Shown one piece after another: positions 15,011 to 64,000 of a stretch of 64,000 nucleotides of DNA. Made by a program: the position numbers and the translations under genes. Position 1 is the stretch's first letter. Every line of letters starts with the position of its first letter. A model generated the notes under the pieces. That model worked only from the letters and a program-made list of their open reading frames with translations. It was not told the DNA's origin and did no database searches. Origin of the DNA: a virus; the IMG/VR virus record IMGVR_UViG_3300045919_000631, positions 45,281-109,280 of that record. One strand, 5' to 3'.

Positions 15011-15016
15011 ATGATA

Positions 15017-15610
15017 ATGCAACGTAAATTTTTAACTTTGGTCGAGAACTCAATAGCTCGCTTTAGCAATGGCGGGTTTCTAGTGGGTGATGTTGTTAAA
15101 TTTGCTCCTAGTTTTAAGAGCAAAGAGTCCTTTAAAGAGCTTACCGATGATGTCAAAAAGTATATTACAGACTTCATGAAGACTGATAAGCCTTTACGTG
15201 TTGTTGATATCGTCACAAGCAAATTAACACCTGGACCAGGCAACAGCGATAATCGCGGTGCAAAGTTTTCTGTCGTGCTAGCAACCGAATTAGCGCCAGG
15301 TAGTTTTGATTTACAGAACAAAGTTACAGTGCCAGGTGATTTGTTAATTGCTGACAACCCATATCCAAATTTACCTCCAATTGCAAATAGTCTCCGTAAA
15401 AAAGAGAAAATTAATTTAAAGCCAGTAAAACCTGAAGAGGATGAAGAGGTTGTCAACGCACCATATGACCAAACTCTTCAGAGTCAAATTGGAGACACTG
15501 TAAAACGTGGAGACCGGTCACTTGGAAATGTTAATGTTAAGATCCCATCCAAGTCGGTCAAAACGCCGATGACTGCAGGTAGCTATACTAAGATGTATGT
15601 TGGTGGCTAA
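15017..15610 (+). CDS. late protein with possible N-terminal capsid-targeting-like tag, 197 aa
   Basis: A single plus-strand gene between two minus-strand blocks, with its own late promoter. The N-terminus MQRKFLTLVENSIARF carries an L-x-E site after an amphipathic helix, a weaker example of the tag seen on other small late proteins here. The body (FSNGGFLVGDVVKF; VTSKLTPGPGNSDNRG; a Lys/Glu-rich C-terminal third) has no family I recognise. A short GTTGG/CCAAC inverted repeat followed by TTTT overlaps the stop codon and might terminate transcription. A virion-associated role is inferred only. Confidence 0.55.
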   Translation: MQRKFLTLVENSIARFSNGGFLVGDVVKFAPSFKSKESFKELTDDVKKYITDFMKTDKPLRVVDIVTSKLTPGPGNSDNRGAKFSVVLATELAPGSFDLQNKVTVPGDLLIADNPYPNLPPIANSLRKKEKINLKPVKPEEDEEVVNAPYDQTLQSQIGDTVKRGDRSLGNVNVKIPSKSVKTPMTAGSYTKMYVGG

Positions 15611-28925: not shown

Positions 28926-29534
28926 TTATAACGGTACAGCAAAGAACTGGGAAAACGAAAACTTAAACCCTGATGTAATCTCATCTGGGTCTTTATAATC
29001 GTAGCTAATTCCATTTAGCGACACGGGAAATGCTTTTGTGTATGTAAATTGCATTACTGGTTTTTCAAACTCATCAAGGGCATACACTGTTAAGTCAGCC
29101 TGATATTTCTCGGGAGCCACTTTCTGTGGGTTTGCAATAGCATTTTGTGGAGTATCGCTCCGGGCATCATAATATGACACTTTTTGATCATTTAATATGT
29201 CTAGCCAGCGATATATAACGTAATAATTATTAAATTTGTTGTCAATTGTAAAGCCGACATCTATATCAGCATAAGGTTCTCTATTATTTGATGATACTTT
29301 AAAAGACTGGCCGCTATAGCCAGCTGTTATACCCGGTACTATAATTTCTGGAACAACTGACCCAAATACAGAGAATTGAAGTGATTTCTCGACAAATAAT
29401 TTTTTATCTCTCGAAGATAAATCACTTGTTGCTAAATCTTTTAGAGCTGCGGGGTAATTTAATACAAGCAGAAATTTATCTTTTCTGCTTTTATTAAGCT
29501 GTGATTGAATATTATTATCTATGATCTCACTCAT
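28926..29534 (-). CDS. tail tube-fold protein between terminase and sheath, 202 aa
   Basis: ATG 29534 overlaps the gp17 stop (ATGA); an in-frame start 15 nt upstream lies within gp17. The strand pattern DKFLLVLNYPAALKDL, FVEKSLQFSVFGSVVPEIIVPGITAGYSGQSFKVSSNN, then DVGFTIDNKFNNYYVIYRWLDIL matches a gp19-type tube fold with an extended insertion. I recall similar proteins next to gp18 in marine T4-like phages. It may cap the distal tube or act in the neck. Confidence 0.5.
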   Translation of the reverse strand: MSEIIDNNIQSQLNKSRKDKFLLVLNYPAALKDLATSDLSSRDKKLFVEKSLQFSVFGSVVPEIIVPGITAGYSGQSFKVSSNNREPYADIDVGFTIDNKFNNYYVIYRWLDILNDQKVSYYDARSDTPQNAIANPQKVAPEKYQADLTVYALDEFEKPVMQFTYTKAFPVSLNGISYDYKDPDEITSGFKFSFSQFFAVPL

Positions 29535-31222
29535 CGCATTGGCTTCCAACCCGAACTCATTAGATCAGCAATCTCATCTGGTTCTGAATTATTTGGTCCA
29601 ATTATAAATGGATTAACGTTTCCAGCACCGGATGAATCACTTTCATTATAGAATGAATGCGGGTTCGTAAAATACTTAATACCAAAATCAATTTGCTTTA
29701 TTAATAGCGGTCTATTGTTTGAGTCGTGTTTGAGAATTTCGAAATATCTCTGAACAATCGCTTCGTCAAGTACGAGCAACGCCCACACCATGCTCATTAC
29801 TCTATCGTCATTAATATTTGTACCTGTTCTAGCGCTCCATGTACCATTTGCGTTGCGCATAAAGTTTTTAAGCTCTTTTACAAGATTAACATCTCTAATT
29901 TGAACAACTTCGAGTTCATTTACCCAATATCTCATATTAGTGATGCCTGTAAATTTTGTGTTTGTGTGATTTATGATACCTAATTGATCTTTAGAGCGGC
30001 CAGCTGCTGATGCACCCCAAGATACTATATTTTCATATTGGTGGACGTTTCGTAAACTATCAACGACTTGCGCTCCGCAGCTATTTCGCTCAATACAAGC
30101 AAGTGGTTTACCCCATTGCGTTAATATTTCATATACCTTTTCAGTGAAATTATATGGAGATATGCTATTATTATGATAGCAAGCCACTTGCTTAATATTT
30201 GTTAACTCTGTAATATCAAAGATATTAACGACTGATGCATCTCTGTCAATTCCTTCTCCAACGTCAATGCCAGCTACATATATTTGACCATCAATTGGCT
30301 GTTCCCATATTTGATAGTGACCATCCTCCATTAGGTACTTTGGTTGCTTAATTTGCATGAGCAGTTTCTCGTACAATTCTTCATTTACTGTGCTTTCTCC
30401 AGCGTCAAGAAATTCACAGCCAAATTCTTGATTAAACGCTTCTTCACTGCCGATTGTGGCAATTGTTTGTTTTCTCCAGCGTTCATCTCTGCCAGGGACT
30501 TCATTCCAGAGAATTTTATCACAACTCCAACCGTTACTACCTTCCTCAGCTCCTTTATATAAAGTGTAAAACAAGTTTCCGGTGCCGTTTGCAGTTGATG
30601 CTATAAAAATTTTAGATTTTTTAGATGATGAAACGATTGGATAAACTGATTTCCAAAATTCCTCAACTAAATGAGAGTCAATAAATGCTAATTCATCCAA
30701 AATCAAACAATTGATAGATTGACCTCTAGCAGCTGTACCAGTTGTTGTAGATATGCCAATTTTGGATCCATTTGCTAATACCATTGAGGTTTTGCCATAT
30801 TCTTTAACGCCGGGCTTGAGCCAATTTGGTAACTCTTCATACGCTAAACGAATTCTTCGAAAAATTTCAATTGCGGTTCCTTCTTTATTAGCAACAATTA
30901 AAATGCTTTGATCTTTTAAAAAGCATGCAATCCATAGAGCGTAAATTGTTAACAATGTAGTTTTACCAATTTGGCGGCTGGCTAACAGCACAAAGAACCT
31001 TTCATCTCTCATCTTTCTAATAGCTCTTTTTTGACAAGGATGCAAAGCAATTTTTTGCTTGCCTTCATCTAGTGACACTATATAAAAGTAGTTTTCAGCA
31101 AAATACAGCAAGTTCTTATTGCATTTTGATATCTCTTGAACCATCTCTGATGTATATTCAAATTCCGCATCAGCAGTTGGGAGATTAGGATTATTTAGAT
31201 ATGTCTGTTTATTCTTAGTCAT
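29531..31222 (-). CDS. 17: terminase large subunit gp17 (packaging ATPase/nuclease)
   Basis: 563 residues; T4 gp17 is 610. Motifs: Walker A SRQIGKTT at ~82-89, Walker B CLILDELAF at ~172-180, the coupling motif IASTANGTGN at ~207-216, and an RNase-H-like nuclease with VAGIDVGEGIDRD (D320) and a later acidic residue after ACIERNSCG. It pumps DNA into the prohead and cuts the concatemer. It is the first gene of the tail block, with GTAAATA 12 nt upstream of the ATG, overlapping the divergent promoter at 31229. Confidence 0.95.
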   Translation of the reverse strand: MTKNKQTYLNNPNLPTADAEFEYTSEMVQEISKCNKNLLYFAENYFYIVSLDEGKQKIALHPCQKRAIRKMRDERFFVLLASRQIGKTTLLTIYALWIACFLKDQSILIVANKEGTAIEIFRRIRLAYEELPNWLKPGVKEYGKTSMVLANGSKIGISTTTGTAARGQSINCLILDELAFIDSHLVEEFWKSVYPIVSSSKKSKIFIASTANGTGNLFYTLYKGAEEGSNGWSCDKILWNEVPGRDERWRKQTIATIGSEEAFNQEFGCEFLDAGESTVNEELYEKLLMQIKQPKYLMEDGHYQIWEQPIDGQIYVAGIDVGEGIDRDASVVNIFDITELTNIKQVACYHNNSISPYNFTEKVYEILTQWGKPLACIERNSCGAQVVDSLRNVHQYENIVSWGASAAGRSKDQLGIINHTNTKFTGITNMRYWVNELEVVQIRDVNLVKELKNFMRNANGTWSARTGTNINDDRVMSMVWALLVLDEAIVQRYFEILKHDSNNRPLLIKQIDFGIKYFTNPHSFYNESDSSGAGNVNPFIIGPNNSEPDEIADLMSSGWKPMR

Positions 31223-31241: not shown

Positions 31242-32231
31242 ATGTCGCAATCAAAGAATCTATTAGAGATATGGGATGTCTATGCTAACAGAGTTATCTT
31301 AGCAGAAAAGGCACCAGCTAAAAAAACTGATACTTTTTCTTCCAAACCCGGAAAAGGACCAGCTGCTCTAAACAGTAAAGAAGCACAAGCAATGGCTCAT
31401 AAAGACACGTCTGGGCCAAATAGCGCTAAGCCGCTTCAAAAACCTCTCGATGTTAAAGATGTAAAGACTAATCCAAAAGATGCTGTCTACGGAGTTCAAC
31501 GTTTTACCGTAGCAAACGGAAAATTTGATGAAAGTATAGAAAAAAGATCTAAAGCGGTAATAAATAATTACATGAAATCTATTTTCGATAAATTGTTTGA
31601 AGATGTTATGGGTGGCGACGATTCTGCTGATCTTAAAGCCCTTGGCGTTGATACAAAAGACGGCCTTGATGCAGGTCAACCAGGAGAAGAAGGAATGGGT
31701 GACGAGTCTGGTGATGTAACAGTTACATTAACAGCTGATCAAGTAGATTGTTTGCGTGCAATTTTATCTCAACTTGACGGTGATGATGCTAGCGGGGATG
31801 ATTTAGAGCAGGGTCTCGGCGACGAAGGCAGCCCTGAAACTGATGAAATTGGTAATCCAGGTGAAGAAGATTCTGAAGAAGAGGACAAAGAAGATGAAGA
31901 TGTCACAAAAGAATCAGTTGCAGCTAGCGTAGACAATAATGTTGATGGCAGTGGTAAAGTTTTAGGCACAGCAATTACAGATGAAGATAAGCTCAATAAT
32001 GGCTTTGTTAAAAAAGGTAATGCAGTTGTAAAGAGCACAGTTTCTAAGCTCGGTAAAAAAGGAAGTCTTGGTAACGGTAATGTAGCAAATGCTGTAGATG
32101 GTAGCGGTAAAGTTTTAGGCACAGCAATTACAGACGAAGATAAACTTTCAAGCGGAATGACAAAAGTTGGTAAAGGTGCAAATGTTGTCAAGACAAAAAT
32201 TGGTAAGCCAGGCAGCGATTTTTTCAGCTAA
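31242..32231 (+). CDS. acidic repeat-containing late protein, 329 aa
   Basis: Begins MSQSKNLLEIWDVYANRVILAE, a helix with L-x-E sites, then a Lys/Ala/Pro-rich stretch. The middle (~115-225) is extremely acidic (Gly/Asp/Glu runs such as EEDSEEEDKEDED), and the C-terminal quarter holds two copies of a VDGSGKVLGTAITDEDKL module. Acidic low-complexity proteins occur in prohead scaffolds, so a head-core or internal-protein role is plausible. It has a perfect late promoter and is followed by a strong terminator. No family was recognised. Confidence 0.55.
   Translation: MSQSKNLLEIWDVYANRVILAEKAPAKKTDTFSSKPGKGPAALNSKEAQAMAHKDTSGPNSAKPLQKPLDVKDVKTNPKDAVYGVQRFTVANGKFDESIEKRSKAVINNYMKSIFDKLFEDVMGGDDSADLKALGVDTKDGLDAGQPGEEGMGDESGDVTVTLTADQVDCLRAILSQLDGDDASGDDLEQGLGDEGSPETDEIGNPGEEDSEEEDKEDEDVTKESVAASVDNNVDGSGKVLGTAITDEDKLNNGFVKKGNAVVKSTVSKLGKKGSLGNGNVANAVDGSGKVLGTAITDEDKLSSGMTKVGKGANVVKTKIGKPGSDFFS
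31941..32003 (+). repeat. internal duplication, copy 1, in the acidic late gene
   Basis: Encodes VDGSGKVLGTAITDEDKL plus a few following residues. Nearly identical at DNA level to 32094-32156, including the stretch GGTAAAGTTTTAGGCACAGC. Confidence 0.8.
32094..32156 (+). repeat. internal duplication, copy 2, in the acidic late gene
   Basis: Second copy of the module, about 90 nt downstream of copy 1; differences are mostly synonymous. Confidence 0.8.
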
Positions 32232-32301: not shown

Positions 32302-32670
32302 GTGGATTCTTTTAAAAAATATTTTACCACTCAAATTGGGCCTAAGCACAGACACCGAAAAGACTTTACTACAGCCACTGGCAGTAAAGGCTATCAACGT
32401 CAGCAAGTAAATTTAGTTCCGCGATTGGCTCAAAATAATGCTTCAGATTTTTCTGGAGCACCTTCTTTTGTGGAAAAAAATCACAAAATTGAAACTCTAA
32501 AAAAGGCTCCTGGTAGATTTTTCTGTGATGGGAAAGATGTAGATTTCATTACAAAAACCTACTTAAAAGGTTCTGCAATTAAGCCTGGAGAAATAAAAAT
32601 GCTTGGTGGTAAGATGGGGATTAAGTTTTACCAAGATGCTAAAACCGGCAAATATATAATTGAAAAATGA
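32302..32670 (+). CDS. hypothetical late protein, 122 aa
   Basis: The frame also has an ATG at 32281, but that codon touches the terminator T-run and precedes the promoter box. GTG 32302, 5 nt after TAAATA, is the better start. The product begins MDSFKKYFTTQIGPKHRHRKDF, is basic, and ends with a small beta module (KMLGGKMGIKFYQDAKTGKYIIEK). Its stop overlaps the next start (ATGA). The function is unknown. Confidence 0.5.
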   Translation: MDSFKKYFTTQIGPKHRHRKDFTTATGSKGYQRQQVNLVPRLAQNNASDFSGAPSFVEKNHKIETLKKAPGRFFCDGKDVDFITKTYLKGSAIKPGEIKMLGGKMGIKFYQDAKTGKYIIEK

Positions 32671-32723
32671 CCTTCAACGAGCTATATACTATCCTTGAAA
32701 ACGACTTCATGAATGGCTTAGAT
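32667..32723 (+). repeat. 57-bp direct repeat, copy A (5' end of the 32667 gene)
   Basis: Identical to 33976-34032 except one base (GAG versus GCG at codon 5). The two copies flank gene 14 and lead into unrelated protein bodies. Confidence 0.95.
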
Positions 32724-33110
32724 GACGTTGATAAAGAAGCGTTTTTCTATAAAATCAGAGTTAATCCAAACGACTTTGAAAAGTGTGGGGAAGGTTGGGT
32801 CGCTAAAAGTCTTAAAAATAAACCAAAAAGTTTAGAAAAAGATTGTATCATGTTTGTTGATGGCACTAAAGTGTGGTGGAAAAACGGAGAGCGCCATCGC
32901 GACGATAGACCTGCTATAGAATATGCTAGTGGCACTAAAGAGTGGTGGAAAAATGGGAGACTTCATCGCGATAATGGACCTGCTATAGAACGAGCTAGTG
33001 GCTCTAAAGAGTGGTATAAAAACGGAAAATGTCATCGCGACGATGGACCTGCTATAGAACGAGCTAGTGGCTATAAAGAGTGGTGGAAAAACGGAGTAAA
33101 AATTAAATGA
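32667..33110 (+). CDS. tagged protein with tandem WWKNG/HRDDGPA repeats, 147 aa
   Basis: The N-terminus MTFNELYTILENDFMNGLD is an amphipathic tag with an I-L-E site, nearly identical to that of the 33976 gene. From residue ~66 a 23-residue repeat occurs three times plus a partial: W-W/Y-K-N-G, H-R-D-(D/N), G/R-P-A-I-E. This repeat family, distantly MORN/YwqK-like in look, recurs in phages and other genomes with no settled function. Start and stop both overlap neighbours (ATGA), placing it in one operon with gp14. Confidence 0.6.
   Translation: MTFNELYTILENDFMNGLDDVDKEAFFYKIRVNPNDFEKCGEGWVAKSLKNKPKSLEKDCIMFVDGTKVWWKNGERHRDDRPAIEYASGTKEWWKNGRLHRDNGPAIERASGSKEWYKNGKCHRDDGPAIERASGYKEWWKNGVKIK
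32862..33107 (+). repeat. 69-bp tandem repeat, about 3.5 copies
   Basis: Units begin at 32862, 32931, 33000 and 33069 (GGC act/tct/tat AAA motif). Copies 2 and 3 share long identical stretches such as GACCTGCTATAGAACGAGCT, pointing to recent amplification. Confidence 0.92.
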
Positions 33111-33976
33111 TCGACTATACCGGCAACTGTTTTCCAGGAATCGTTGACGATAGCACTTTTTGCTTTCGTTATAATGATAAAGCTACAAATGAAAATGAGC
33201 AATACCTTTTTCAAAGCTATTGGAATGAGCAAATTAATACATACGGTCAACGCACAACCTATTACGTCAATACCTACAATGTATTGAGCGCTGATAACAT
33301 TTATGGTGAGCAGCCGGCCCGACGCTTTGCTCCTGGTGTGAGCCTTATTATGGCAATTGAGTTGAGTGAAAATGCAAATACTCTTTCAAAATTTGGCTTT
33401 CAAGCTGATGATGAAATCACAGCATATGTGACAATATCAGGATTTTATAACGCTTTTAATTCTTTAGGATTGACATTGATGACAACAACCAGTGGAGTTT
33501 CAGGTAACGTCCTCGACACTCAAAATTCTCAAGATATTCGAACTGAAACATCAACAGTGTATGAAACTCAATTTAATCAGGTTCAGCCCAAAGCTGGTGA
33601 CGTTTTTGCAATGACAGAGTACGGCCAAGGACGTCCTGGTGGTCGAAGCGGTATTCAATTTGAAGTCACTGAAATTATTGATCAGGATATTACAAAAATA
33701 AATCAGCTCGGTGGCCATTACGTTTGGATGCTAAAAGCAAAACGCTTTGATTATAGCTTTGAGCCAGGGCTATCTGCTGAAGCTAAAAGCGATCAAGTAT
33801 TTGATAATTCATTTTCTGGTCAACTTAGCGGTGGTGTCGATGATGACGTTATTCCTACTCCAGTTGATACGTCAATCGATAAAAAATATCCTCTTAATAT
33901 CGACCAAACTAGCAAAACTGTTGTCTTTAATATGTCAGCTAATAATGATACAGCTGTCTATGGAGGTTATTACTAA
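33107..33976 (+). CDS. 14: neck (head-tail connector) protein gp14-like
   Basis: 289 residues; T4 gp14 is 256. The stretch FQSYWNEQINTYGQRTTYYVNTYN, DNIYGEQPARRF, then IELSENANTLSKFGFQADDEITAYVTISGF is the gp14 pattern (Q-x-x-x-E-x-I-x-x-YG, GE, S-KFG, D-E). gp14 completes the head neck so a tail can attach. It is unusual in being wedged between two tagged genes that share a 57-bp 5' repeat, with 4-nt and 1-nt overlaps to them. Confidence 0.68.
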   Translation: MIDYTGNCFPGIVDDSTFCFRYNDKATNENEQYLFQSYWNEQINTYGQRTTYYVNTYNVLSADNIYGEQPARRFAPGVSLIMAIELSENANTLSKFGFQADDEITAYVTISGFYNAFNSLGLTLMTTTSGVSGNVLDTQNSQDIRTETSTVYETQFNQVQPKAGDVFAMTEYGQGRPGGRSGIQFEVTEIIDQDITKINQLGGHYVWMLKAKRFDYSFEPGLSAEAKSDQVFDNSFSGQLSGGVDDDVIPTPVDTSIDKKYPLNIDQTSKTVVFNMSANNDTAVYGGYY

Positions 33977-34032
33977 TGACCTTCAACGCGCTATATACTA
34001 TCCTTGAAAACGACTTCATGAATGGCTTAGAT
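33976..34032 (+). repeat. 57-bp direct repeat, copy B (5' end of the 33976 gene)
   Basis: See copy A at 32667. Divergence begins sharply at codon 20. Confidence 0.95.
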
Positions 34033-34332
34033 CAGGTCGAAGATGAATTAAAATGGCATCTCCCGTTTTATGTGTGGGATAGTAGTCCAAAAACAATTAA
34101 CACTAAACAATTTAGCAGTATTGCAGAGCACTGGATGTCTTACATAAAAGAAATCCATAAAAAATATAAAACTGCGAAAGAATTTCGAGATGCTATTCTC
34201 GAAGGAGAGCCTCTCATGTTTGAGAGGACTGGAGATGGTATAAAATATTTAGACGGTTCTGTATATTCTTATAAAGTGGTCTTCTGCTCTAATATAGATC
34301 GTCTCAAGGAATTTGTCAAGACCTTGAAGTAG
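33976..34332 (+). CDS. tagged late protein, 118 aa
   Basis: ATG overlaps the gp14 stop (TAATG). Residues 1-19 (MTFNALYTILENDFMNGLD) duplicate the tag of the 32667 protein with one substitution; the body (FSSIAEHWMSYIKEIHKKYKTAKEFRDAIL) is different and helical. It converges with the minus-strand gene at 34316. The function is unknown; an internal head protein is inferred from the tag. Confidence 0.55.
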   Translation: MTFNALYTILENDFMNGLDQVEDELKWHLPFYVWDSSPKTINTKQFSSIAEHWMSYIKEIHKKYKTAKEFRDAILEGEPLMFERTGDGIKYLDGSVYSYKVVFCSNIDRLKEFVKTLK

Positions 34333-34964: not shown

Positions 34965-35337
34965 CGTTAAAATAGATTGGTTCAGTTACGAGCAACGTTT
35001 TTACAACTGTTTCTGCTTTAATTGTCTTGTCACACTTTTTGCATTTGTAAAAAACGTCAACATCTTGCCTAATCTCAACTGGCTGTTTCACTTTTTCATT
35101 GCAAGGACATTCAATTACAGCTACGTGTTTAGATTTTAATGCATACTCCTCATTTTTAAGCTGCTGAGCCTTTAAAATTAAAGCGTTCTCAACTGTTTGG
35201 CGATATATTTCATATCCAATAGTTTGAAGCACTATTGCAAGCATAAAAACAAGCCAAAAATGAGAAGAAAATATAAGCCCAAACACAACACTTACAAAAA
35301 GCGTCAAACCTATCGAAAATACCGGAGATTTAAACAT
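34951..35337 (-). CDS. small membrane protein with C-terminal zinc-ribbon-like motif, 128 aa
   Basis: Two hydrophobic segments lie at ~7-24 (VFSIGLTLFVSVVFGLIF) and ~27-43 (FWLVFMLAIVLQTIGY). A cytoplasmic-looking part with CPC and, 20 residues on, CKKC follows, which could coordinate zinc. It starts at an ATG overlapping the previous stop. Possible roles include host-membrane modification late in infection; no family was recognised. Confidence 0.5.
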   Translation of the reverse strand: MFKSPVFSIGLTLFVSVVFGLIFSSHFWLVFMLAIVLQTIGYEIYRQTVENALILKAQQLKNEEYALKSKHVAVIECPCNEKVKQPVEIRQDVDVFYKCKKCDKTIKAETVVKTLLVTEPIYFNDGQR

Positions 35338-35690
35338 TAACCAATTTTATCTACAAGAGTGCTAATTTCAACTAATATTTTGTTTATCTCAGTTAATTTT
35401 TTCTTAGCTTCTTCTAAAATAGGGGCTTGGTTTTTCTTGAAAGCTGGGTTAACCATTGTGTTATCAATAATTTTCTCCATATTCATCACTGTTACATACA
35501 TATCTGATAAAATCTCATCGGTTCTATCAAGAGGATAAGGCTTTACATGAGGTGCTTGAGAGTTATCATCTCTATTATTTGCTCCCATTAGGGTCGACAC
35601 TTTATTAGCCTCAGGTGGTGTCTCTGTTTTCATTCCAGACATCTGGCGCTGACTATTCATTTTTTGATCCTCTGAAATGAGCTTTTTCAT
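35337..35690 (-). CDS. hypothetical late protein, 117 aa
   Basis: Polar, disordered N-terminal half (MKKLISEDQKMNSQRQMSG) and a helical C-terminus (EEAKKKLTEINKILVEISTLVDKI). The LISED near the start faintly resembles the late-protein tag. A late box with 5-nt spacing drives it, divergent from the 35724 gene. Confidence 0.5.
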   Translation of the reverse strand: MKKLISEDQKMNSQRQMSGMKTETPPEANKVSTLMGANNRDDNSQAPHVKPYPLDRTDEILSDMYVTVMNMEKIIDNTMVNPAFKKNQAPILEEAKKKLTEINKILVEISTLVDKIG

Positions 35691-35723: not shown

Positions 35724-36143
35724 ATGAGCAAATTTGGCAACAGATTTAAAAGCATTTTGAATGAGAAAGATGAAGAGATGTCTGATCAACAAGCCATGGC
35801 TCAGACACTTGACAAAGGATCGTCTATTGAAGACTTTAATGTGGATGCTCCTCCTGTGGATCACCAAGTTCAACCTTCAATGAGCGGCATTCAGAAGAAG
35901 ATGTACGATGAATTGAAGGAATGGATTGCAGAGCTTGATAGATTCGCTCAATATTTGAACGGTACAGAGCCAAATAGTGTTCAATCTCGATTAAATTCAG
36001 CTGAATCGGATACATTATTTGATAAAATCAGCACAGCTGAAACAAAAAAGATTGCTCGTGTTGCTGTAGAAATTTCTTCTTTAAGTGAAATGATGAAAGG
36101 CTATTTAGCCACAGTCAATGATCCAAAATATCGCTATTCGTGA
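35724..36143 (+). CDS. tagged late protein, 139 aa
   Basis: N-terminus MSKFGNRFKSILNEKDEEM fits the shared tag exactly (F at 4, hydrophobic at 8, I-L-x-E). The body is helical and acidic (MYDELKEWIAELDRFAQYLNG; IARVAVEISSLSEMMKGYL). It is a lone plus-strand late gene between minus-strand operons, converging with the primase gene by 10 nt. The function is unknown; packaging into the head is inferred. Confidence 0.55.
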   Translation: MSKFGNRFKSILNEKDEEMSDQQAMAQTLDKGSSIEDFNVDAPPVDHQVQPSMSGIQKKMYDELKEWIAELDRFAQYLNGTEPNSVQSRLNSAESDTLFDKISTAETKKIARVAVEISSLSEMMKGYLATVNDPKYRYS

Positions 36144-39860: not shown

Positions 39861-40688
39861 TTAATTAGTATTTAAATCAGCGAGAAGTTTTTCAACTTCA
39901 TCATCGCTATCTACAGGAGCTGTCTTTTTAGAAGCTTTTGGGGACTCTTTTACTGGCTCATTCTTTTCTTCTTCGACTTCATCCTTAACAGTAGTGCAAT
40001 AGAAGTGCTCTGCAAGCATTTGCTTAAGCTCTTCAACGCTCCTTGCCGGAATAACACCAGTTAAATCAAACACGCTGCCATAGATCTTTTCAATCTTATC
40101 TTCTGTCAAGCCCTTAATTTCACCGGGCATGGAGAACTTAGATGCAACATAAGAAGGAAACTCACCTTGCTTATCAACTTTAATTTTAAGACTAACACCT
40201 TGATTACTCAGATCAAAAATCTTTGAACCAAGCTCTTCGGCGCTCTCACCATCAATTGCATCTTGGATAACGGTCTGCAACTGCTTGCCGTAGCGTAAAA
40301 TCTTTACTGTTCCGTTATTTTCTGGCTTAACGGGATCATTAACTACATATACGTTAACAAGCCATTTTTCAGCGCGACGAATAGTTTCGGCTTTTTTCTT
40401 GGCTGTTTCATCGCCTGTGCGAATAATGCGATAACGGTCTTCAGAGATTGGATCTCTTTGATTGAATGTCTGGAGACTTAATGCTCCAACATACTCTCCT
40501 GTAGAGAAGCTTGTCCAACCGTGCTGATAATAATGGAAAAACGTCTTAGACGCATCCTTTGCTGGTAAAAGGCGTACCGTGTAGGTATTGCCTGGTTCTG
40601 TCTTTAGAAAATCACCGGCGCCGCCAGTGCTTTTATCTTGCTCAAGAGCTTTTTTAATGCTCGCGAATGCTGATGTTATGTTACTCAT
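39861..40688 (-). CDS. 32: single-stranded DNA-binding protein gp32
   Basis: 275 residues. The N-terminal basic LAST-like segment is followed by an OB-fold core: GNTYTVRLLPAKDASKTFFHYYQHGW, RRAEKWLVNVYVVNDPVKPENNGTVKILRYGKQL. The acidic tail (DSDDEVEKLLADL) recruits partners in T4. The CPxC zinc ligands of T4 gp32 are absent. It is preceded by the best host-type promoter in the window (40721-40748). Confidence 0.9.
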   Translation of the reverse strand: MSNITSAFASIKKALEQDKSTGGAGDFLKTEPGNTYTVRLLPAKDASKTFFHYYQHGWTSFSTGEYVGALSLQTFNQRDPISEDRYRIIRTGDETAKKKAETIRRAEKWLVNVYVVNDPVKPENNGTVKILRYGKQLQTVIQDAIDGESAEELGSKIFDLSNQGVSLKIKVDKQGEFPSYVASKFSMPGEIKGLTEDKIEKIYGSVFDLTGVIPARSVEELKQMLAEHFYCTTVKDEVEEEKNEPVKESPKASKKTAPVDSDDEVEKLLADLNTN

Positions 40689-57088: not shown

Positions 57089-58528
57089 TTATGAAACCTG
57101 CTTTTCAACAACTGTTGTTTCAACATAGCCAATTTTTTCTTTATTGTATGTTTCTTTACGTTGAATACTATGATTGATACCATATTCAAGCTTATCAGCA
57201 ATATCAATAATCGATAATCTAGTTTTATTGCTATTAAGCCTTAACCCTCTACCAATTGATTGAACAGTTCTAATAAAACTCTTACCTCCAGCGGCAAAAA
57301 TAATCATATGTAGATTTTTAATATTAACACCGGTCGAGAATATAGCACTTATAGCAATACATACAACGTTATTATTTGCTTCCATTTCTTGAATAACTTT
57401 AGCTCTTTCTTCTACTTCAACCTCTCCTCGAATAAAATATATTTTCTTGTCTTTAATATTTTCAGAGTTAATTAGCGTATCATATATAATATTACCGTGA
57501 GCAATATGGTTTACCATGATTAAAATGTTGTTATTAAATTTTTGACAAATAGCTGAAATCATTTTATTTCTATAGCTGCTATTATGTATAAAGTTTAACT
57601 CATCTCTAAAGTTTTTGATCTTATCAAGCTCTTCTTTATTCGTGTATTTTACGTTTAAAATATTAACAGTGACTCCCGTTAAATATTTTTCTTCTCTTAA
57701 GTCAAAACTGCTTTTTTCGTAAAAAACTCTACCAAGCTTACCAATAATATTCCATTCATCAATCTTTGTATCTGGTAAGGTGCCAGTTAATCCAAATTTA
57801 TGTGGTGTTTTAATTTGAGCTAATAGCTTATTGACTTTATTTGCTTTTTTTAATTTATGACACTCATCGATGACCATTAAGTCAATATTTTTAAGCCAGT
57901 CAGTTTCTTTGTATTGACTCTGTAATATTCCAAGATTTGCAATTATAACATTGCGCGAAAGATCAGGTTCTATTGAGCCAGTCCATTTAGTAAATGTGAA
58001 TGGGACATTATATGATTCAAAGTCTTTAAATGTTTGAGATACAAGGCCTAAATCAGGTACAATCAATAGACATTTAATATTTGAGGATTTTACCCAAAAA
58101 GATGAAATAAGAGATGCTGTTGTTAATGTTTTACCACCACCCGTGCCGATTTTAATTATACCACGACCAAATTGTAAAGCTTTTTTAACTGTCTCAAATT
58201 GAAAATCTCTTAATTTAAGGCTACATTTATCATACACTTCAGTTACATTTGTATCAGGTTTTGCTGCTTTTGAGAGTTCTGAATCTATAATTACTTCAGT
58301 TTCTGGATGAGCCGATTTTAGCCAAATAAGCAATTCATATATCATCCCAATTTCAAACAACCCTGTAGGAGTCATTAGATATAATCTTTCTTTTGCCCAC
58401 TTGTTGCCCATCTTTCTCATAAAGAAAGCGTTGGTATTTTTTACACTAAAATGCTCACGCATTTCATCAAAATGATCACCAGTCACTCTACCGAGTCTTC
58501 GGTTTGGTAGATATTCAAATTTGGTCAT
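57089..58528 (-). CDS. uvsW: DNA/RNA helicase UvsW
   Basis: 479 residues (T4 UvsW is 502). SF2 motifs: RDFQFETVKKALQFGRG, GTGGGKT (Walker A), DLMVIDECHKLKK (DECH box), GLTGTLPD (motif III) and QSIGRGLRLN (motif VI). It resolves R-loops and branched intermediates and helps the switch to recombination-dependent replication. Its start overlaps the UvsY stop by 1 nt, as in the T4 pair. Confidence 0.92.
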   Translation of the reverse strand: MTKFEYLPNRRLGRVTGDHFDEMREHFSVKNTNAFFMRKMGNKWAKERLYLMTPTGLFEIGMIYELLIWLKSAHPETEVIIDSELSKAAKPDTNVTEVYDKCSLKLRDFQFETVKKALQFGRGIIKIGTGGGKTLTTASLISSFWVKSSNIKCLLIVPDLGLVSQTFKDFESYNVPFTFTKWTGSIEPDLSRNVIIANLGILQSQYKETDWLKNIDLMVIDECHKLKKANKVNKLLAQIKTPHKFGLTGTLPDTKIDEWNIIGKLGRVFYEKSSFDLREEKYLTGVTVNILNVKYTNKEELDKIKNFRDELNFIHNSSYRNKMISAICQKFNNNILIMVNHIAHGNIIYDTLINSENIKDKKIYFIRGEVEVEERAKVIQEMEANNNVVCIAISAIFSTGVNIKNLHMIIFAAGGKSFIRTVQSIGRGLRLNSNKTRLSIIDIADKLEYGINHSIQRKETYNKEKIGYVETTVVEKQVS

Positions 58529-59670: not shown

Positions 59671-59916
59671 ATGAGTCTCTACGAGAATACATTTAAAAAG
59701 ATTATCAATGAAAACGGGGCTGGGTATGTACCTTCTGCTCCAAACACATCAGGAAGCGGTGGTGCTTTTGGTAATGCTGCTAGTATTGGAGCTGCTGGTT
59801 GTGCTTCTGGCACTCCTGGCACTGATACATATGCAACTGGAGACTTTAGAATGCCTGGGGTATTTGGGGCATATACTCGTAAAGGTAAAATTAAAAAGAA
59901 AAAGAAGAAAAAGTGA
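59671..59916 (+). CDS. tagged Gly/Ala-rich late protein with poly-Lys tail, 81 aa
   Basis: MSLYENTFKKIINENGAGY fits the shared N-terminal tag (I-N-E site). The middle is Gly/Ala/Ser-rich and low complexity (GSGGAFGNAASIGAAGCASG), and the end is KGKIKKKKKKK. A short protein with a removable tag and a polybasic tail could bind DNA inside the head; this is inferred. The stop overlaps the next start (GTGA). Confidence 0.55.
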   Translation: MSLYENTFKKIINENGAGYVPSAPNTSGSGGAFGNAASIGAAGCASGTPGTDTYATGDFRMPGVFGAYTRKGKIKKKKKKK

Positions 59917-60374
59917 ATCTCGGACATTGGCAAAGCAACCTTCAAATTGATGAATCAAATATACCTTTTGGGTTTATTTACTTGATTACTAATACAGTGA
60001 GCGGTAAAAAGTATATTGGTAAAAAACAAATGAAATCAGTTTTAAAGAGAGAGCCGCTCAAGGGTAAGAAAAACAAAAGACATTTTGATATAGAGACTGA
60101 TTGGCGTGAATATACATCATCTTCTAATGATCTTAATGAGGATATTCAAAAGATAGGCAAAGATAAATTTACTTTTGAAATTATCAAATTATGTGACAGC
60201 AAGTTTGATTTAGCTTTTTCAGAAGCAAAGTTGCAATTTGAGAATGATGTGCTGCTCCGAGATGATTTTTATAATGGAATTATAAACTGCAGGATAGGAA
60301 AAGCCCCTAGACTTTTTGTAGAGAAGTATTATAATAAAAAATCTTGCAATACGAGCTCGCAGAATATGGTATAA
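59913..60374 (+). CDS. GIY-YIG domain protein, 153 aa
   Basis: Starts at GTG overlapping the previous stop. The domain reads FGFIYLITNTVSGKKYIGKKQ, then a polar insertion with DWREYTSSS, then KFTFEIIKLCDSKFDLAFSEAKLQFENDVLL with the catalytic Glu and a final Asn (DDFYNGIINCRIG). No DNA-binding repeats follow. Similar short proteins occur widely in T4-like marine phages, so it may be domesticated rather than a mobile homing enzyme. Confidence 0.72.
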   Translation: MNLGHWQSNLQIDESNIPFGFIYLITNTVSGKKYIGKKQMKSVLKREPLKGKKNKRHFDIETDWREYTSSSNDLNEDIQKIGKDKFTFEIIKLCDSKFDLAFSEAKLQFENDVLLRDDFYNGIINCRIGKAPRLFVEKYYNKKSCNTSSQNMV

Positions 60375-60898
60375 CTTTAATTGACTTCAATAAAGTCTTT
60401 ATTAAGGAGGTTCAAGTCGATATACTTGATGACTTATTCAAGTTTAAATTATTAGGTAAAAATTTAGCAAACTCAGACGTCAAGAAGATTTTTTATCACC
60501 ATATTGTTTATAGGATATGTGAAGATTTATTGGCTGTTAGATTTAGCAAACCTATTATCATTTTTAATCACACTCAGCTTGATGATTGCTTTATTAAGAA
60601 TTATTTTAAAGAAGACAGCCTTTTAGATTTTTTAGTGGCTTTTATTAATAAACTCCAAACAATGTTGCCTATAAAAATATACAAAAGTAAGCTAAATATA
60701 GAGACATTGCAGCATTTACAAAAAACTCAAGATGCTAGAGCTCAAATGATGATAAATGCTTTAGTGCAAAAGAGTAACACGTTTGATAGTTCTTCATATA
60801 GTTTTGAAAAGATAAAGAGATTCACAAAAAAATATGAGTTAACCTTTCTTAACAGCGATTACTTCAATAGAATAAAAACAAAACAAATATTGATTTAA
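60344..60898 (+). CDS. hypothetical protein, 184 aa
   Basis: The only usable start is TTG 60344, overlapping the GIY-YIG gene by 31 nt. Next ATG is ~106 codons in. Helical, Lys/Phe-rich (VDILDDLFKFKLLGKNLANSD; FLVAFINKLQTMLPIKIYKS). No family was recognised. The stop (TAA) overlaps the late box of the next gene. Confidence 0.5.
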   Translation: MQYELAEYGITLIDFNKVFIKEVQVDILDDLFKFKLLGKNLANSDVKKIFYHHIVYRICEDLLAVRFSKPIIIFNHTQLDDCFIKNYFKEDSLLDFLVAFINKLQTMLPIKIYKSKLNIETLQHLQKTQDARAQMMINALVQKSNTFDSSSYSFEKIKRFTKKYELTFLNSDYFNRIKTKQILI

Positions 60899-60904
60899 TA
60901 AATA
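60897..60904 (+). promoter_or_regulatory. late promoter box for the 60910 gene
   Basis: AATAAATA, 5 nt before ATG 60910. Confidence 0.65.
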
Positions 60905-60909
60905 ATACT

Positions 60910-61239
60910 ATGGATACCTTTACAAAGAAAATAGATAAAATTTTAGAAAACATTAAAGCTGGAGAAACTGTTATCTATAATTCTGATGGTGATCATGAAG
61001 AAGAGGAAGAAGGTTCAGCAACATCTTCAATGCCTGGAACAGAAGATACTCAAATGGGTGCCGCAGCTACAAGCAGCAATATTGTTAACCCTGTTGATAT
61101 GGCGCAACAATTAGCTACAAAAGCTAAAAATCCACAAGCAATGCAAGCACAAACTCAAATGCATGCAGCGTATACAAAATTAATGCAAGGGTTGGCTCAA
61201 AAGCTATCAACTACAGCAGGCAATTTGAATAAAGCTTAA
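60910..61239 (+). CDS. tagged small acidic late protein, 109 aa
   Basis: MDTFTKKIDKILENIKAG carries the tag (I-L-E). An acidic patch (DHEEEEEG) and an Ala/Gln/Met-rich helical C-terminus (MAQQLATKAKNPQAMQAQTQ) follow. Probably an internal or scaffold-associated head protein; no homologue was recognised. Two nt separate it from the next tagged gene. Confidence 0.55.
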   Translation: MDTFTKKIDKILENIKAGETVIYNSDGDHEEEEEGSATSSMPGTEDTQMGAAATSSNIVNPVDMAQQLATKAKNPQAMQAQTQMHAAYTKLMQGLAQKLSTTAGNLNKA

Positions 61240-61240
61240 T

Positions 61241-61549
61241 ATGAAGTTTCTTAATCGAGTAAATAAAATTCACCGTTATATTGTTGAAGATGGTCAGGAT
61301 AACCCTCAACAAAATCAGCCTCAAGCAGAACAACCGCAAGCTCCAGCAAATCCAGAACCTCTTTCTGCAGAAGGTGAAGTTATGTTAGTTCGCTTGCTAA
61401 AAAAAGCGCTTGTAATTGATATCAAACCTGAAGACGCTGAAACAATTCAGAAAATGGGTGATGTTAATGAAAATAATTGCCGTCAGGTTTTAAATGAATT
61501 AATTACGTTGATTAAGCTCTACTCACCGGTAGATATTAACAAAATTTGA
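61241..61549 (+). CDS. tagged late protein, 102 aa
   Basis: MKFLNRVNKIHRYIVEDGQDN carries the tag with an I-V-E site, then a Gln/Pro-rich linker (QQNQPQAEQPQAPANPEP) and a helical domain (EVMLVRLLKKALVIDIKPED). Its stop overlaps the TTG start of the nuclease-like gene, so the two are probably made together. Confidence 0.55.
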   Translation: MKFLNRVNKIHRYIVEDGQDNPQQNQPQAEQPQAPANPEPLSAEGEVMLVRLLKKALVIDIKPEDAETIQKMGDVNENNCRQVLNELITLIKLYSPVDINKI

Positions 61550-62592
61550 TCACAGATATTTACAAAGAAAAACGCCACGAACTAGCTGTTAATGGTGAGC
61601 AGTTTTTGATTAATTCAGAGCAGCTAAACGCTGTAATGCAAATTGTATCCGTCAATAACGAGATGTTGCATGTTTTATCTGAACAGATTGAGAGCTTTAA
61701 TATTCCAAAATTACATGCTTATAATCTTTCACGTATAATACTATCATCAGTAAATTCCGATGATGCTGTTAATTATCTATTTGATAGAAGAGTAACTCTT
61801 GATGATATTAATAGACGAAATTTATTTGATGTATTTTTAGATTACAATATTGGTGAAGATCTTATTAGCGATTTAATGAGATATACTTGGGAAGCAACCC
61901 CAGCTATCGGAAAAGGTGAAGTATTTTTTGCTTTAATGTTTAAAGATGCATCAAAAATAAATGATCACGGAGATGTGATCATTGGAGATGAAGTCGTTGA
62001 TATTAAAGGTGATGGTGCACGTTTAAAAGGACAAACCGGGTTTGGAATGGGCCATGAAGCTGGTGACTTTTGGCACGGTATTCTTTCTTCTCGTGATGTT
62101 TTTAATCAATATGCAACAGCGTTACCTGCCAAAGGATCAACTGCTTTTAATTTAACATCTGGTAATTTTGCTCTTGATAGACTCGGGCGCGTGGTTGGTT
62201 TTACTATTGATGATGTAATTGACCTATGGAAGCAAGGGTTAATGCGAGTATATGACCATTCATCGTATACCGACTTTAAGTTTATTGATAGAGCTTATGA
62301 AACAGGAAAACTTGATGAGGAAAAGCTAAGATTAGGGTTTATTAAGTTTTCTATTAGATATTATTTTAAAGTTGAACAAGTCGATAAAATCGTTGTAAGC
62401 AAATTCTCATTAAGAGAATCTGATACATCCATTGATAGTAAAAGAATTGGATATGTTGCAATTCTCTCTAAAAATGATGTATTGACTGATGAATATATTC
62501 AGTCAATTGCAAAATATACTTTACCTAGTTTTTCTGCGAGTGCAGGTTCTCAAGGCGGGGCTTTAGGAATATCTATTAAAGCCCTGGATTAG
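61546..62592 (+). CDS. PD-(D/E)XK-like protein, 348 aa
   Basis: Starts at TTG overlapping the previous TGA. The N-terminal ~110 residues are helical. At ~125-165: AIGKGEVFFALMFKDASK, then GDVIIGDEVVDIKGDGARLKGQ. This Glu-helix, G-D-V, V-x-D-x-K-G-x-GARL arrangement looks like a PD-(D/E)XK active site. A similar motif appears in virion-associated proteins of cyanophages as I recall. DNA cleavage is not proven. C-terminal part: YYFKVEQVDKIVVSKFSL. Confidence 0.55.
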   Translation: MITDIYKEKRHELAVNGEQFLINSEQLNAVMQIVSVNNEMLHVLSEQIESFNIPKLHAYNLSRIILSSVNSDDAVNYLFDRRVTLDDINRRNLFDVFLDYNIGEDLISDLMRYTWEATPAIGKGEVFFALMFKDASKINDHGDVIIGDEVVDIKGDGARLKGQTGFGMGHEAGDFWHGILSSRDVFNQYATALPAKGSTAFNLTSGNFALDRLGRVVGFTIDDVIDLWKQGLMRVYDHSSYTDFKFIDRAYETGKLDEEKLRLGFIKFSIRYYFKVEQVDKIVVSKFSLRESDTSIDSKRIGYVAILSKNDVLTDEYIQSIAKYTLPSFSASAGSQGGALGISIKALD

Positions 62593-62998
62593 TATGATTG
62601 ATATTCACACCACCACGGACTGGAGCGTTTGATTGCAAAGATTGCTCAGCTTGATGAAGAACATCACTTAAATTATTAACTGCAAGTTCTAATTTCTTTA
62701 CCCAATCTCTTTGACCACCGACACTTGGAAGAAGGTTAACTAATTGTTTTGATTTTGTGAGTATATCAGCAGCGTGATTTTTAATTTGCGCTTTGCAATT
62801 ATCATCACTCTCTTTTGATGCTAATCCTTTATCTGGAATATTAGGAGATTTACCAGGGGCTCCATCAACAGATGGAATTCTTTGCATTGCACCACCTCCA
62901 CCGACTTGACCAGTGCCTGGCGTGTCAGGACCCATACCAACGTCTTCACTAACACATTTTAAGTATGCTTCAAAAAGATATGCACTTTCGTTATCCAT
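62576..62998 (-). CDS. late protein with possible tag, 140 aa
   Basis: MDNESAYLFEAYLKCVSEDVG has L-F-E and V-S-E sites near the start, then a Gly/Pro-rich linker (GPDTPGTGQVGGGGAM) and a helical C-terminus. It has a late box 5 nt upstream and converges with the PD-(D/E)XK-like gene (17-nt overlap). Confidence 0.5.
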   Translation of the reverse strand: MDNESAYLFEAYLKCVSEDVGMGPDTPGTGQVGGGGAMQRIPSVDGAPGKSPNIPDKGLASKESDDNCKAQIKNHAADILTKSKQLVNLLPSVGGQRDWVKKLELAVNNLSDVLHQAEQSLQSNAPVRGGVNINHTNPGL

Positions 62999-63003
62999 AT
63001 CAT

Positions 63004-63009
63004 TATTTA
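63004..63009 (-). promoter_or_regulatory. late promoter box for the 62998 gene
   Basis: Minus-strand TTAAATA, then ATGAT, then ATG 62998; shares its edge with the plus-strand box at 63009. Confidence 0.6.
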
Positions 63010-63016
63010 ATAAATA
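63009..63016 (+). promoter_or_regulatory. late promoter box for the 63022 gene
   Basis: AATAAATA, 5 nt before ATG 63022. Confidence 0.65.
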
Positions 63017-63021
63017 ACTTA

Positions 63022-63387
63022 ATGAGTCTCTTTAATGAATTTGTGAATGCTATCTTACTTGAAGATGGTCCTACAACAGATTTTAAAGAGTTGCCTGAAT
63101 CACCTCCTTATGGATTCATTGTTGATCCATCAGGTAAATTTACTGCAATAAGAAACTTTCAAGGTCATGCAGCTGCGGTGTATGTGCATTATACTAAATA
63201 CTTTATAGATTCTCCTGAGGGTGGTGTACCTGCTTGGACTACTATGGAGCGAAATGGTTTTATTAGGCTTGTGTGTGATAATGATGTTTTATTAGCTAAT
63301 ACAATAAAACCAACAAATGCTGCACGAAGAACAGCTCAAGATATAGCAAGATGGTATAATTTAAATTACGTCGAAGAGGGAGAATAA
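63022..63387 (+). CDS. tagged late protein, 121 aa
   Basis: MSLFNEFVNAILLEDG is the clearest tag in the window (F4, F7, I-L-L-E). The frame extends upstream but the late box fixes ATG 63022. The body is compact and beta-containing (YGFIVDPSGKFTAIRNFQGHAAAVYVHYTKYF), with a helical end (AARRTAQDIARWYNL). No family was recognised. Confidence 0.58.
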   Translation: MSLFNEFVNAILLEDGPTTDFKELPESPPYGFIVDPSGKFTAIRNFQGHAAAVYVHYTKYFIDSPEGGVPAWTTMERNGFIRLVCDNDVLLANTIKPTNAARRTAQDIARWYNLNYVEEGE

Positions 63388-63390
63388 ATA
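63383..63390 (+). promoter_or_regulatory. late promoter box for the 63396 gene
   Basis: AATAAATA overlaps the previous stop codon; 5 nt to ATG 63396. Confidence 0.65.
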
Positions 63391-63395
63391 AATTT

Positions 63396-63644
63396 ATGTC
63401 TGCTTTTGATACCTCAGTTAATAACATTTTAAAGCAATATGTCTTTGAAAATCTCCCAGCACCAGATAATACAGTAAGCCAAATATCTTTAGCTGATTTC
63501 GATGAAAAATATAAAACAGAGATGGAATTGTTAGCTAAGAAATTACAGGATGAAAATCAAATGAAAGAGGATGATGCAAAAGCGTTGGCTAGACACACTA
63601 TTCTTAGTGATTTGGCTAACCAAGGCGTTACCATTAAAGTTTGA
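63396..63644 (+). CDS. late protein with tag-like N-terminus, 82 aa
   Basis: MSAFDTSVNNILKQYVFENL keeps the hydrophobic spacing of the tag but with V-F-E in place of I-L-x-E. The remainder is helical and acidic (FDEKYKTEMELLAKKLQDENQ; DDAKALARHTIL). No family was recognised. Confidence 0.5.
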   Translation: MSAFDTSVNNILKQYVFENLPAPDNTVSQISLADFDEKYKTEMELLAKKLQDENQMKEDDAKALARHTILSDLANQGVTIKV

Positions 63645-63690
63645 TAATCAGATAGTTGATTAACTAGTTACCCGATCTAAATTATTAGGT

Positions 63691-63900
63691 ATGAGTAATA
63701 TTACAGAAAACACAACACAGTTAACGACACTCTTTGCTGATTTCAGCGAAAACATTCAAAAGTTCACCGAAAAGGATAATGCATCAGCAGCTTTTCGTGC
63801 CCGCAAAGCTCTTCTAGAAATTGGAAAGCTTACTCGTGAGGTTCGTAAGCAAATTCAAGAGCGAAAGAAAGCTCTTAAAGCAGCTCCTGCAACAGCCTAA
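63691..63900 (+). CDS. histone H1-like (Hc1-type) small DNA-binding protein
   Basis: 69 residues: FADFSENIQKFTEKDNASAAFRARKALLEIGKLTREVRKQIQERKKALK. The pattern (F-x(3)-K-x-N-x-A-A-x-R-A-R-K-A-L-x-x-L-x-K-L-x-x-x-x-R-K-x-I-x-x-x-K) matches short bacterial Hc1/histone-H1-like proteins. They are helical DNA-compacting factors. CTAAATT lies 7 nt before ATG. Virion- or nucleoid-associated; function inferred. Confidence 0.55.
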   Translation: MSNITENTTQLTTLFADFSENIQKFTEKDNASAAFRARKALLEIGKLTREVRKQIQERKKALKAAPATA

Positions 63901-63902
63901 AC

Positions 63903-63910
63903 AATAAATA
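63903..63910 (+). promoter_or_regulatory. late promoter box for the 63916 gene
   Basis: AATAAATA, 5 nt before GTG 63916. Confidence 0.55.
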
Positions 63911-63915
63911 GTTGA

Positions 63916-64000
63916 GTGATTTCATTCAAACTTTTTATTGAAAACGCTCTAGGCTTAATAGAAACAGTAACTTTTAAAGAGTTAGGCCCCATTGACGCTA
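63916..64000 (+). CDS. tagged late protein, truncated at window end
   Basis: Starting at GTG 63916, 5 nt after the late box, the visible 28 residues read MISFKLFIENALGLIETVTFKELG.... They resemble the start of the 63022 protein (F4, hydrophobic spacing, L-I-E, then F-K-E-L). The frame is open to the edge. It is too short to say more. Confidence 0.45.
   Translation, partial: MISFKLFIENALGLIETVTFKELGPIDA

Follow-up and report, generated by a model that had tools for sequence, protein, structure and literature searches.

A gp23-arm-like protein and a family of probable capsid-targeting propeptides in a divergent T4-like phage

Why should a series of small phage proteins with unrelated bodies begin with the same short amphipathic sequence, ending in an [IL]-x-E site? 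The question is raised by a 64,000-nucleotide stretch of virus DNA (the window), i.e. bases 45281-109280, the right end, of a 109,280-base linear IMG/VR virus record (IMGVR_UViG_3300045919_000631; a fragment, labelled G000), for which an earlier note listed at least eight such proteins and likened their N-termini to the capsid-targeting sequences (CTS) of phage T4. The listed open reading frames (ORFs) all exist, with the N-termini quoted, and we consider T4-type capsid-targeting propeptides to be the best reading of these N-termini and, on sequence evidence, a likely one. One of the tagged proteins, encoded at 59671 and here called mini-gp23, carries behind its tag a copy of the N-terminal arm of the mature head protein gp23, a mimicry that the note had missed. 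Judged from its genes, which include those for gp17, gp18 and gp32 (Table 1), the fragment belongs to an uncultured, divergent T4-like myovirus. Its terminase is just 33-39% identical to those of the best named phages, and a search of the phage collection found no close DNA relatives of the window. A scan of IMG/VR terminases yielded 80 loci at 55-73% identity to that of G000; relatives are referred to below by labels (G or L followed by three digits), L140 being S-SM1 and L136 P-TIM40.

Beyond its tag, mini-gp23 reads NENGAGYVPSAPNTSGSGGAFGN...TDTYATGDFRMP, compared with REAGPGWNPPVPNTAGTAGAFGN...TDTYATGDFRLP after the maturation site of the L110 gp23, and in the alignment the last glutamate of the tag falls on the site of gp23 maturation, CL[RN]E/A (a stroke marks the established or putative cut throughout). 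Its own orthologues aside, gp23 is the best match of mini-gp23 among the collected proteins (local alignment z 15.6), and an hhalign comparison of 13 minis with 10 gp23 N-termini gave a probability of 98.8 and E 1e-16. The mini ends where the conserved capsid domain of gp23 begins; the profile of that domain, PF07068, has no match anywhere in G000. [LIVMF]xE is kept in 13/13 aligned family members, and the minis collected from IMG/VR (76-165 aa) all show the three elements (tag, arm, polybasic end) and adjoin uvsW wherever the flank is long enough. The arm also tracks lineage: the L133 mini scores best against the G017 gp23 (136, others at most 103) and the G000 mini against that of L110 (211), and in G022, the one genome with both genes, its own gp23 is near the top (79, with 84 for L110). 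Neither the mini profile nor the S-SM1_197 protein introduced below gave a credible match in the PDB, whilst tblastn found no mini in named phages, a result made uninformative by the BLAST low-complexity filter.

A tagless counterpart of this protein, the family T4-GC426/phrog_696, is present in 287 cyanophage records. P-TIM40_191 starts MSAGNGGFSGSAAATGPVAGFDPML, and the gp23 of the same phage has MSAGTAGFSGSSTATGPVAGFDPVL after LTE/AAPT (z 18.8), 20 of 25 residues being identical; S-SM1_197 likewise has a gp23-arm-like N-terminus, and both proteins match phrog_696, which is annotated 'major head protein'. The family (17805-18353 in L140, 21621-21989 in L136) is gp23-like in the N-terminal arm only; after the arm come a basic stretch and a different body. 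The copied arm and the basic stretch after it are shared with the mini; unlike the mini, the cyanophage proteins lack a tag and begin at the mature-arm sequence, have a longer C-terminal part and are encoded near gp61, not uvsW. Mini-gp23 itself has no match in PHROG and hence is not phrog_696. No description of a gp23-arm mimic was found in the literature and databases searched, as far as which show the architecture is undescribed.

Whether the tags as a group exceed chance was examined in several ways. A regular expression of the tag plan is matched by 17 of 143 N-termini in G000, where shuffles average 6.9 and 0/300 reach 17; the rate of 12% compares with 4% in internal windows, and in G022 and G012 17% compares with 5-6%. 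Pattern B, a variant requiring two hydrophobic residues before xE, showed no enrichment in G000. A first position-specific scoring matrix (PSSM), trained on 40 tags from genomes other than G000, found 13 N-termini against 1.4 in shuffles (maximum 5 in 500). Because these 40 tags had been chosen by eye and included orthologues of some G000 proteins, a strict model was trained on 17 tags from proteins without recognised G000 orthologues; this gave 6 against 1.5 at one threshold (1/500 shuffles reaches 6), and 11 against 3.1 and 18 against 8.4 at two other thresholds (0/500 each). In a control with the first PSSM, phage SPO1 had no excess (1 against 1.6). The profile scan of the whole fragment thus places the tag above background frequency. 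The earlier count of at least eight is somewhat inflated all the same: several members are individually weak, with first-PSSM ranks of 22 (61241), 23 (63396), 26 (33976) and 28 (15011), and the genes at 32667 and 33976 share an N-terminal module with L002 857-1453, a gene outside the window, so that the three amount to one tag observation. Similar modules, resembling NDFMNGLDxVExE, occur with and without MTFNELYTILE in front of them (L002 490-837, 857-1453, 14102-14380 and 14383-14652; L003 1656-1904; window 32667 and 33976), and L002 857-1453 and window 32667-33110 have WYKNGKxHRDDGPAIE-type repeats, MORN/YwqK-like by eye.

It is on orthologues and not on single sequences that the strength of the tag case depends. 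The 35724 protein and its 23 orthologues (25-59% identical) keep [LIVMF]-x-E in 24/24 cases, at residue 13 or 14; the strict form [LI]xE is found in 21/24 members of this family and 10/13 of the mini-gp23 family, and across most members of the two the position of [LIVMF]xE shifts between residues 11 and 14. Profiles of the two families align over the tag only (E 1.7e-4). Tag conservation is similar in the families of 35690, 15011 (orthologue tags MARKFLKLIE/N, MNKFVKLYE/S and MKRKFLKLIE/Q) and 61241; the 31242 protein has many orthologues, with TATAAATA upstream. In L133, two adjacent genes have an identical 17-residue tag, MRTFDKLVNSIIENNVA, encoded by nearly identical DNA, and unrelated bodies. 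Adjoining this pair is a third gene (L133 1942-2208) for a small tagged polybasic protein, MTFNEFFYLE/TDQSAAIQGNIFGDF. An AF2 model of the 35724 protein consists of a tag helix (residues 4-14), a disordered linker and a helical hairpin, and a fold search with this low-confidence model (pTM 0.43) gave a single match, an uncharacterised phage homologue.

Links to head assembly come from relatives and from known systems. The gp22 N-termini of G008, G017 and G022 follow the tag plan (MDIKQILSEA, MDKITDILQEKA and ..KSILKEA, respectively), and the gp23 proteins of the same three genomes have a CL[RN]E/A or CIGE/A site. The T4 protease gp21 cleaves behind L/I-x-E, and for IPIII of that phage the 10 N-terminal residues are enough to enter the head; extra CTS-bearing proteins in T4-like phages have already been inferred in the T4 literature (PMC9026906). 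The cytidylyltransferase T4-GC190 of S-SM1 starts MKKFSAFLNE/A, the top-scoring sequence among the S-SM1 ORF N-termini scanned, and its detection in purified virions by mass spectrometry has been reported (PMC3037559). By analogy, this tagged virion protein provides the strongest external support for capsid targeting; no counterpart of it was seen in the G000 fragment, whilst relatives have one.

In the mechanism that we propose, late expression would be followed by binding of the amphipathic tag, 9-18 residues long, to the prohead core, i.e. a scaffold of the gp22 type whose own N-terminus is similar; a gp21-type protease would next cut after [LI]-x-E, and the mature bodies, diverse as they are, would stay in the head, perhaps to be ejected. 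Removal of the tag would leave mini-gp23 with the N-terminal arm of mature gp23 (gp23*) and, behind it, a polybasic tail that probably binds DNA. Most simply, the protein would serve as a tether, docking in the sites for the gp23 arm while holding on to packaged DNA, a function that we assign tentatively, at somewhat less than even probability. With similar reserve we propose that T4-like phages have a small protein dedicated to mimicking the mature gp23 arm; delivered to the prohead (with a tag here, tagless in cyanophages), it may fill arm sites and anchor DNA, or occupy vacant arm sites, via its polybasic tail, the arm being kept matched to the resident gp23.

The T4-type targeting and gp21-type cleavage suggested in the earlier note have good indirect support in the gp22 plan, the alignment of the 59671 and gp23 sites, the shared L133 tag, the recurrence of the island described below and the S-SM1 virion protein, whereas several observations weigh on the other side. 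Neither gp21 nor gp23 was found within the G000 fragment; both are present in G008, G017 and G022, and it is with gp23 of relatives that the cleavage site could be compared. The P1' residue of the G000 tags is N, D or K, compared with A in gp23. G012-type minis have a lysine-rich insert between tag and arm, and their site nearest the arm is EED/N, with no clean LxE; because of this insert and the differing P1' residue, cleavage in G012-type minis is the least certain step. Several G000 tags lie near background and most are not significant alone, and T4-GC190 of S-SM1 sat in the training sets of both models. Nor are late-promoter-like TAAATA sites enriched at tagged genes (8/26, against 28/117 of the others; p 0.46): they lie just 5' of 35724, 60910, 63022, 63396 and 62998, yet precede about a quarter of all G000 genes, ending 2-13 bases 5' of the ATG in 36 of 143 (among all ATGs of the window the figure is 1.8%). 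This spacing, with the near absence of Shine-Dalgarno motifs across the fragment, suggests that late mRNAs of this phage are near-leaderless.

Other explanations were weighed against this evidence. The one that survives best, though we think it unlikely, is that the right-end genes encode scaffold or core proteins (gp67/gp68-like) that are destroyed in maturation and not retained as cargo; some bodies are indeed small, acidic or low-complexity (60910, 61241), like the T4 core protein gp67, but other proteins of the island are globular and enzyme-like or DNA-binding (Hc1, retropepsin-like, cytidylyltransferase-like, DUF6267). A little less probable still is that mini-gp23 acts not as a tether but on the protease, mimicking a gp21 substrate and so timing or limiting gp21 activity. 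The mini does reproduce the cleavage-site context and P-prime side of gp23, and the gene for the T4 inhibitor of gp21, Inh, is located near uvsW; such a role would account neither for the conserved polybasic tail nor for the presence of the complete arm as far as D[FM]RxP, and the cyanophage form has neither tag nor cleavage site. That the tags are generic amphipathic helices, e.g. membrane- or partner-binding, in which [IL]xE is incidental, we regard as improbable: the motif is short and degenerate, with several members scoring near background, but every aligned member of two unrelated families retains the terminal [LIVMF]xE, which in the mini falls on the site of gp23 maturation; moreover, gp22 has the same plan, SPO1 lacks an excess, and a tagged S-SM1 protein is reported from virions (PMC3037559). 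Least probable of all, by a small step further, is that mini-gp23 has no function of its own and is what is left of a decaying gp23/gp24 paralogue, or a by-product of one. It does align with the N-terminal region of gp23 only, and the loss of its tag would resemble that of the 10-residue N-terminal peptide from T4 gp24 (PMC9958956); yet the short ORF is intact and polybasic-ended in all aligned members, beside uvsW across lineages, and the cyanophages conserve a tagless form of their own.

At the right end of the window begins an island of tagged genes, found again next to uvsW in relatives, a setting in keeping with the capsid-targeting interpretation. The UvsW copy adjoining most minis is 46-59% identical to that of the window (40% in L123/L124); the window protein matches the annotated uvsW of S-SM1 at 30%. 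In G022 (69.6-92 kb), G012 (8-25 kb, reversed) and L114, uvsW is followed by a gene for 131 aa, the mini-gp23 orthologue and a GIY-YIG gene, then by counterparts of 60344, 60910 (G012 and L114), 61241 and 61546, and further on by a tagged cytidylyltransferase-like and/or DUF6267-type gene, the opposite-strand counterpart of 62576 and a retropepsin-like gene, the one that the window end truncates in G000. Tags in these islands include MKTFKEYVMQE, MLPFKQFLIE, MRSFKEFFYE, MLNFKTYFLLE and MVKFVEFFNE, the second and fourth of these standing on the cytidylyltransferase-like class in G022 and L114, respectively. The L114 gene (6243-8072) encodes a tagged 609-aa protein whose second half is cytidylyltransferase-like (PF01467, 3.5e-11). 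The SegE-type gene appears unlike a roaming homing gene, because its position beside the mini is the same in all relatives examined.

Among the remaining island proteins of the window, that at 61546 is possibly PD-(D/E)xK nuclease-like, by eye; it has no Pfam or PHROG match, and a single-protein scan of IMG/VR found no relative. Counterparts of 62576 at the same position in relatives have LNE or VNE ahead of GLGP. For 63022, the IMG/VR single-protein scan found no relatives at its sensitivity, and a motif scan for similar bodies was empty; a longer ORF begins at 62965, and the earlier choice of start is probably right, because TAAATA immediately precedes the ATG at 63022. The 63691 protein, whose identity the earlier note had missed, is a member of the Hc1 family at 51.9 bits (curated cut-off 23.5). 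The 63916 gene has an orthologue in G012 (8865-9302) and an L114 counterpart, MLSYQLFFE/RALGLVE; the G022 counterpart scores 26.5 bits against PF05618 (E 6.9e-6), just under the cut-off of 27, and has no match in named phages.

Table 1. Coordinates of the features discussed, in window positions
Feature	Position	Strand	Remarks
gp18	26519-28894		
gp17	29531-31222		
gp32	39861-40688		
Conserved 199-aa protein	15011..15610	+	MIMQRKFLTLVE/N
Conserved protein, divergent from gp17	31242..32231	+	second N-terminal plan, LxEIWxxYxxxxxxE
Repeat protein	32667..33110	+	tag MTFNELYTILE/NDFMNGLD
Protein with body differing from 32667	33976..34332	+	N-terminus MTFNxLYTILENDFMNGLD
Divergent neighbour of 35724	35337..35690	-	MKKLISED; orthologues with longer tags MQSTIKFKDFVKLLGE, MRYTGKFNDFVRLLEE
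Tagged protein, core gene of clade	35724..36143	+	MSKFGNRFKSILNE/K
UvsW-type helicase	57089..58528	-	fixed left neighbour of island
Mini-gp23	59671..59916	+	81 aa: tag MSLYENTFKKIINE/, gp23-type mature N-arm (NGAGYVP...DTYATGDFRMP), polylysine tail
Capsid-targeting-like tag of mini-gp23	59671..59712	+	ends at IxE site
SegE-type GIY-YIG endonuclease	59913..60374	+	PF19835 E 7.8e-32; fixed neighbour of mini-gp23
Tagged acidic protein	60910..61239	+	MDTFTKKIDKILE/N; rank 5/143; L114 same-position counterpart MDLFTEKANNILKYVLKE
Tagged acidic Pro/Gln-rich protein	61241..61549	+	MKFLNRVNKIHRYIVE/DG; orthologue tags MKKFLKQYNSILE, MRFNDLIAAKFGNLLE
Conserved island protein, no clear tag	61546..62592	+	same-position counterparts in G012, G022, L114
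Island protein, second N-terminal plan	62576..62998	-	MDNESAYLFEAYLKCVSE/DVGMGP
Tagged protein	63022..63387	+	MSLFNEFVNAILLE/DG; rank 8/143; strict-model rank 16
Weakly tagged protein	63396..63644	+	MSAFDTSVNNILKQYVFE/N; strict-model rank 7
Histone H1-like (Hc1) protein, untagged	63691..63900	+	PF07432 E 6.9e-14; orthologue in G012
Retropepsin/Zn_protease-like protein, start only	63916..64000	+	VISFKLFIE/NALGLIE; GTG start; ORF cut by contig end

Set beside known systems, the tags resemble the CTS of T4 IPI-IPIII and Alt in their short amphipathic N-terminal plan ending in [LI]-x-E and in their small, diverse bodies; core targeting and gp21 cutting have been demonstrated in T4 (PMC9026906, PMC9958956), whereas G000 is known from its sequence. 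The N-termini have the length (about 10-19 residues) and the L/I-x-E end of a T4-type propeptide, and one tag occurs on otherwise unrelated bodies, both in the L133 pair and in the mini-gp23 and 35724 profiles. Unlike the T4 internal proteins, the tagged genes of G000 are far more numerous, are clustered in an island beside uvsW and have different bodies, with P1' mostly N or D. In T4, the N-fist/N-arm of gp23* moves outward on expansion and touches neighbouring subunits (PMC9958956); compared with T4 gp23* and gp24, the mature part of the mini matches the N-terminal arm of gp23 from its own lineage, and the two are placed alike with respect to the cleavage site, but the mini stops before the capsid domain and has a polybasic tail instead. 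Removal of N-terminal propeptides from packaged proteins by a prohead protease is likewise found in the giant phages phiKZ and SPN3US, which differ in having mostly long propeptides, another protease and another shell (PMC10052503).

The tag provides a sequence rule for spotting proteins that are probably carried in the heads of T4-like phages of uncultured bacteria, with histone-like and retropepsin-like proteins and, in relatives, cytidylyltransferase-like enzymes as candidate cargo. The gp23-arm mimic suggests that a second protein uses the arm-binding sites of the capsid, which would bear on how the capsid is stabilised and how DNA is held within it, and it explains why a protein in hundreds of cyanophage genomes bears the unexpected annotation 'major head protein'.

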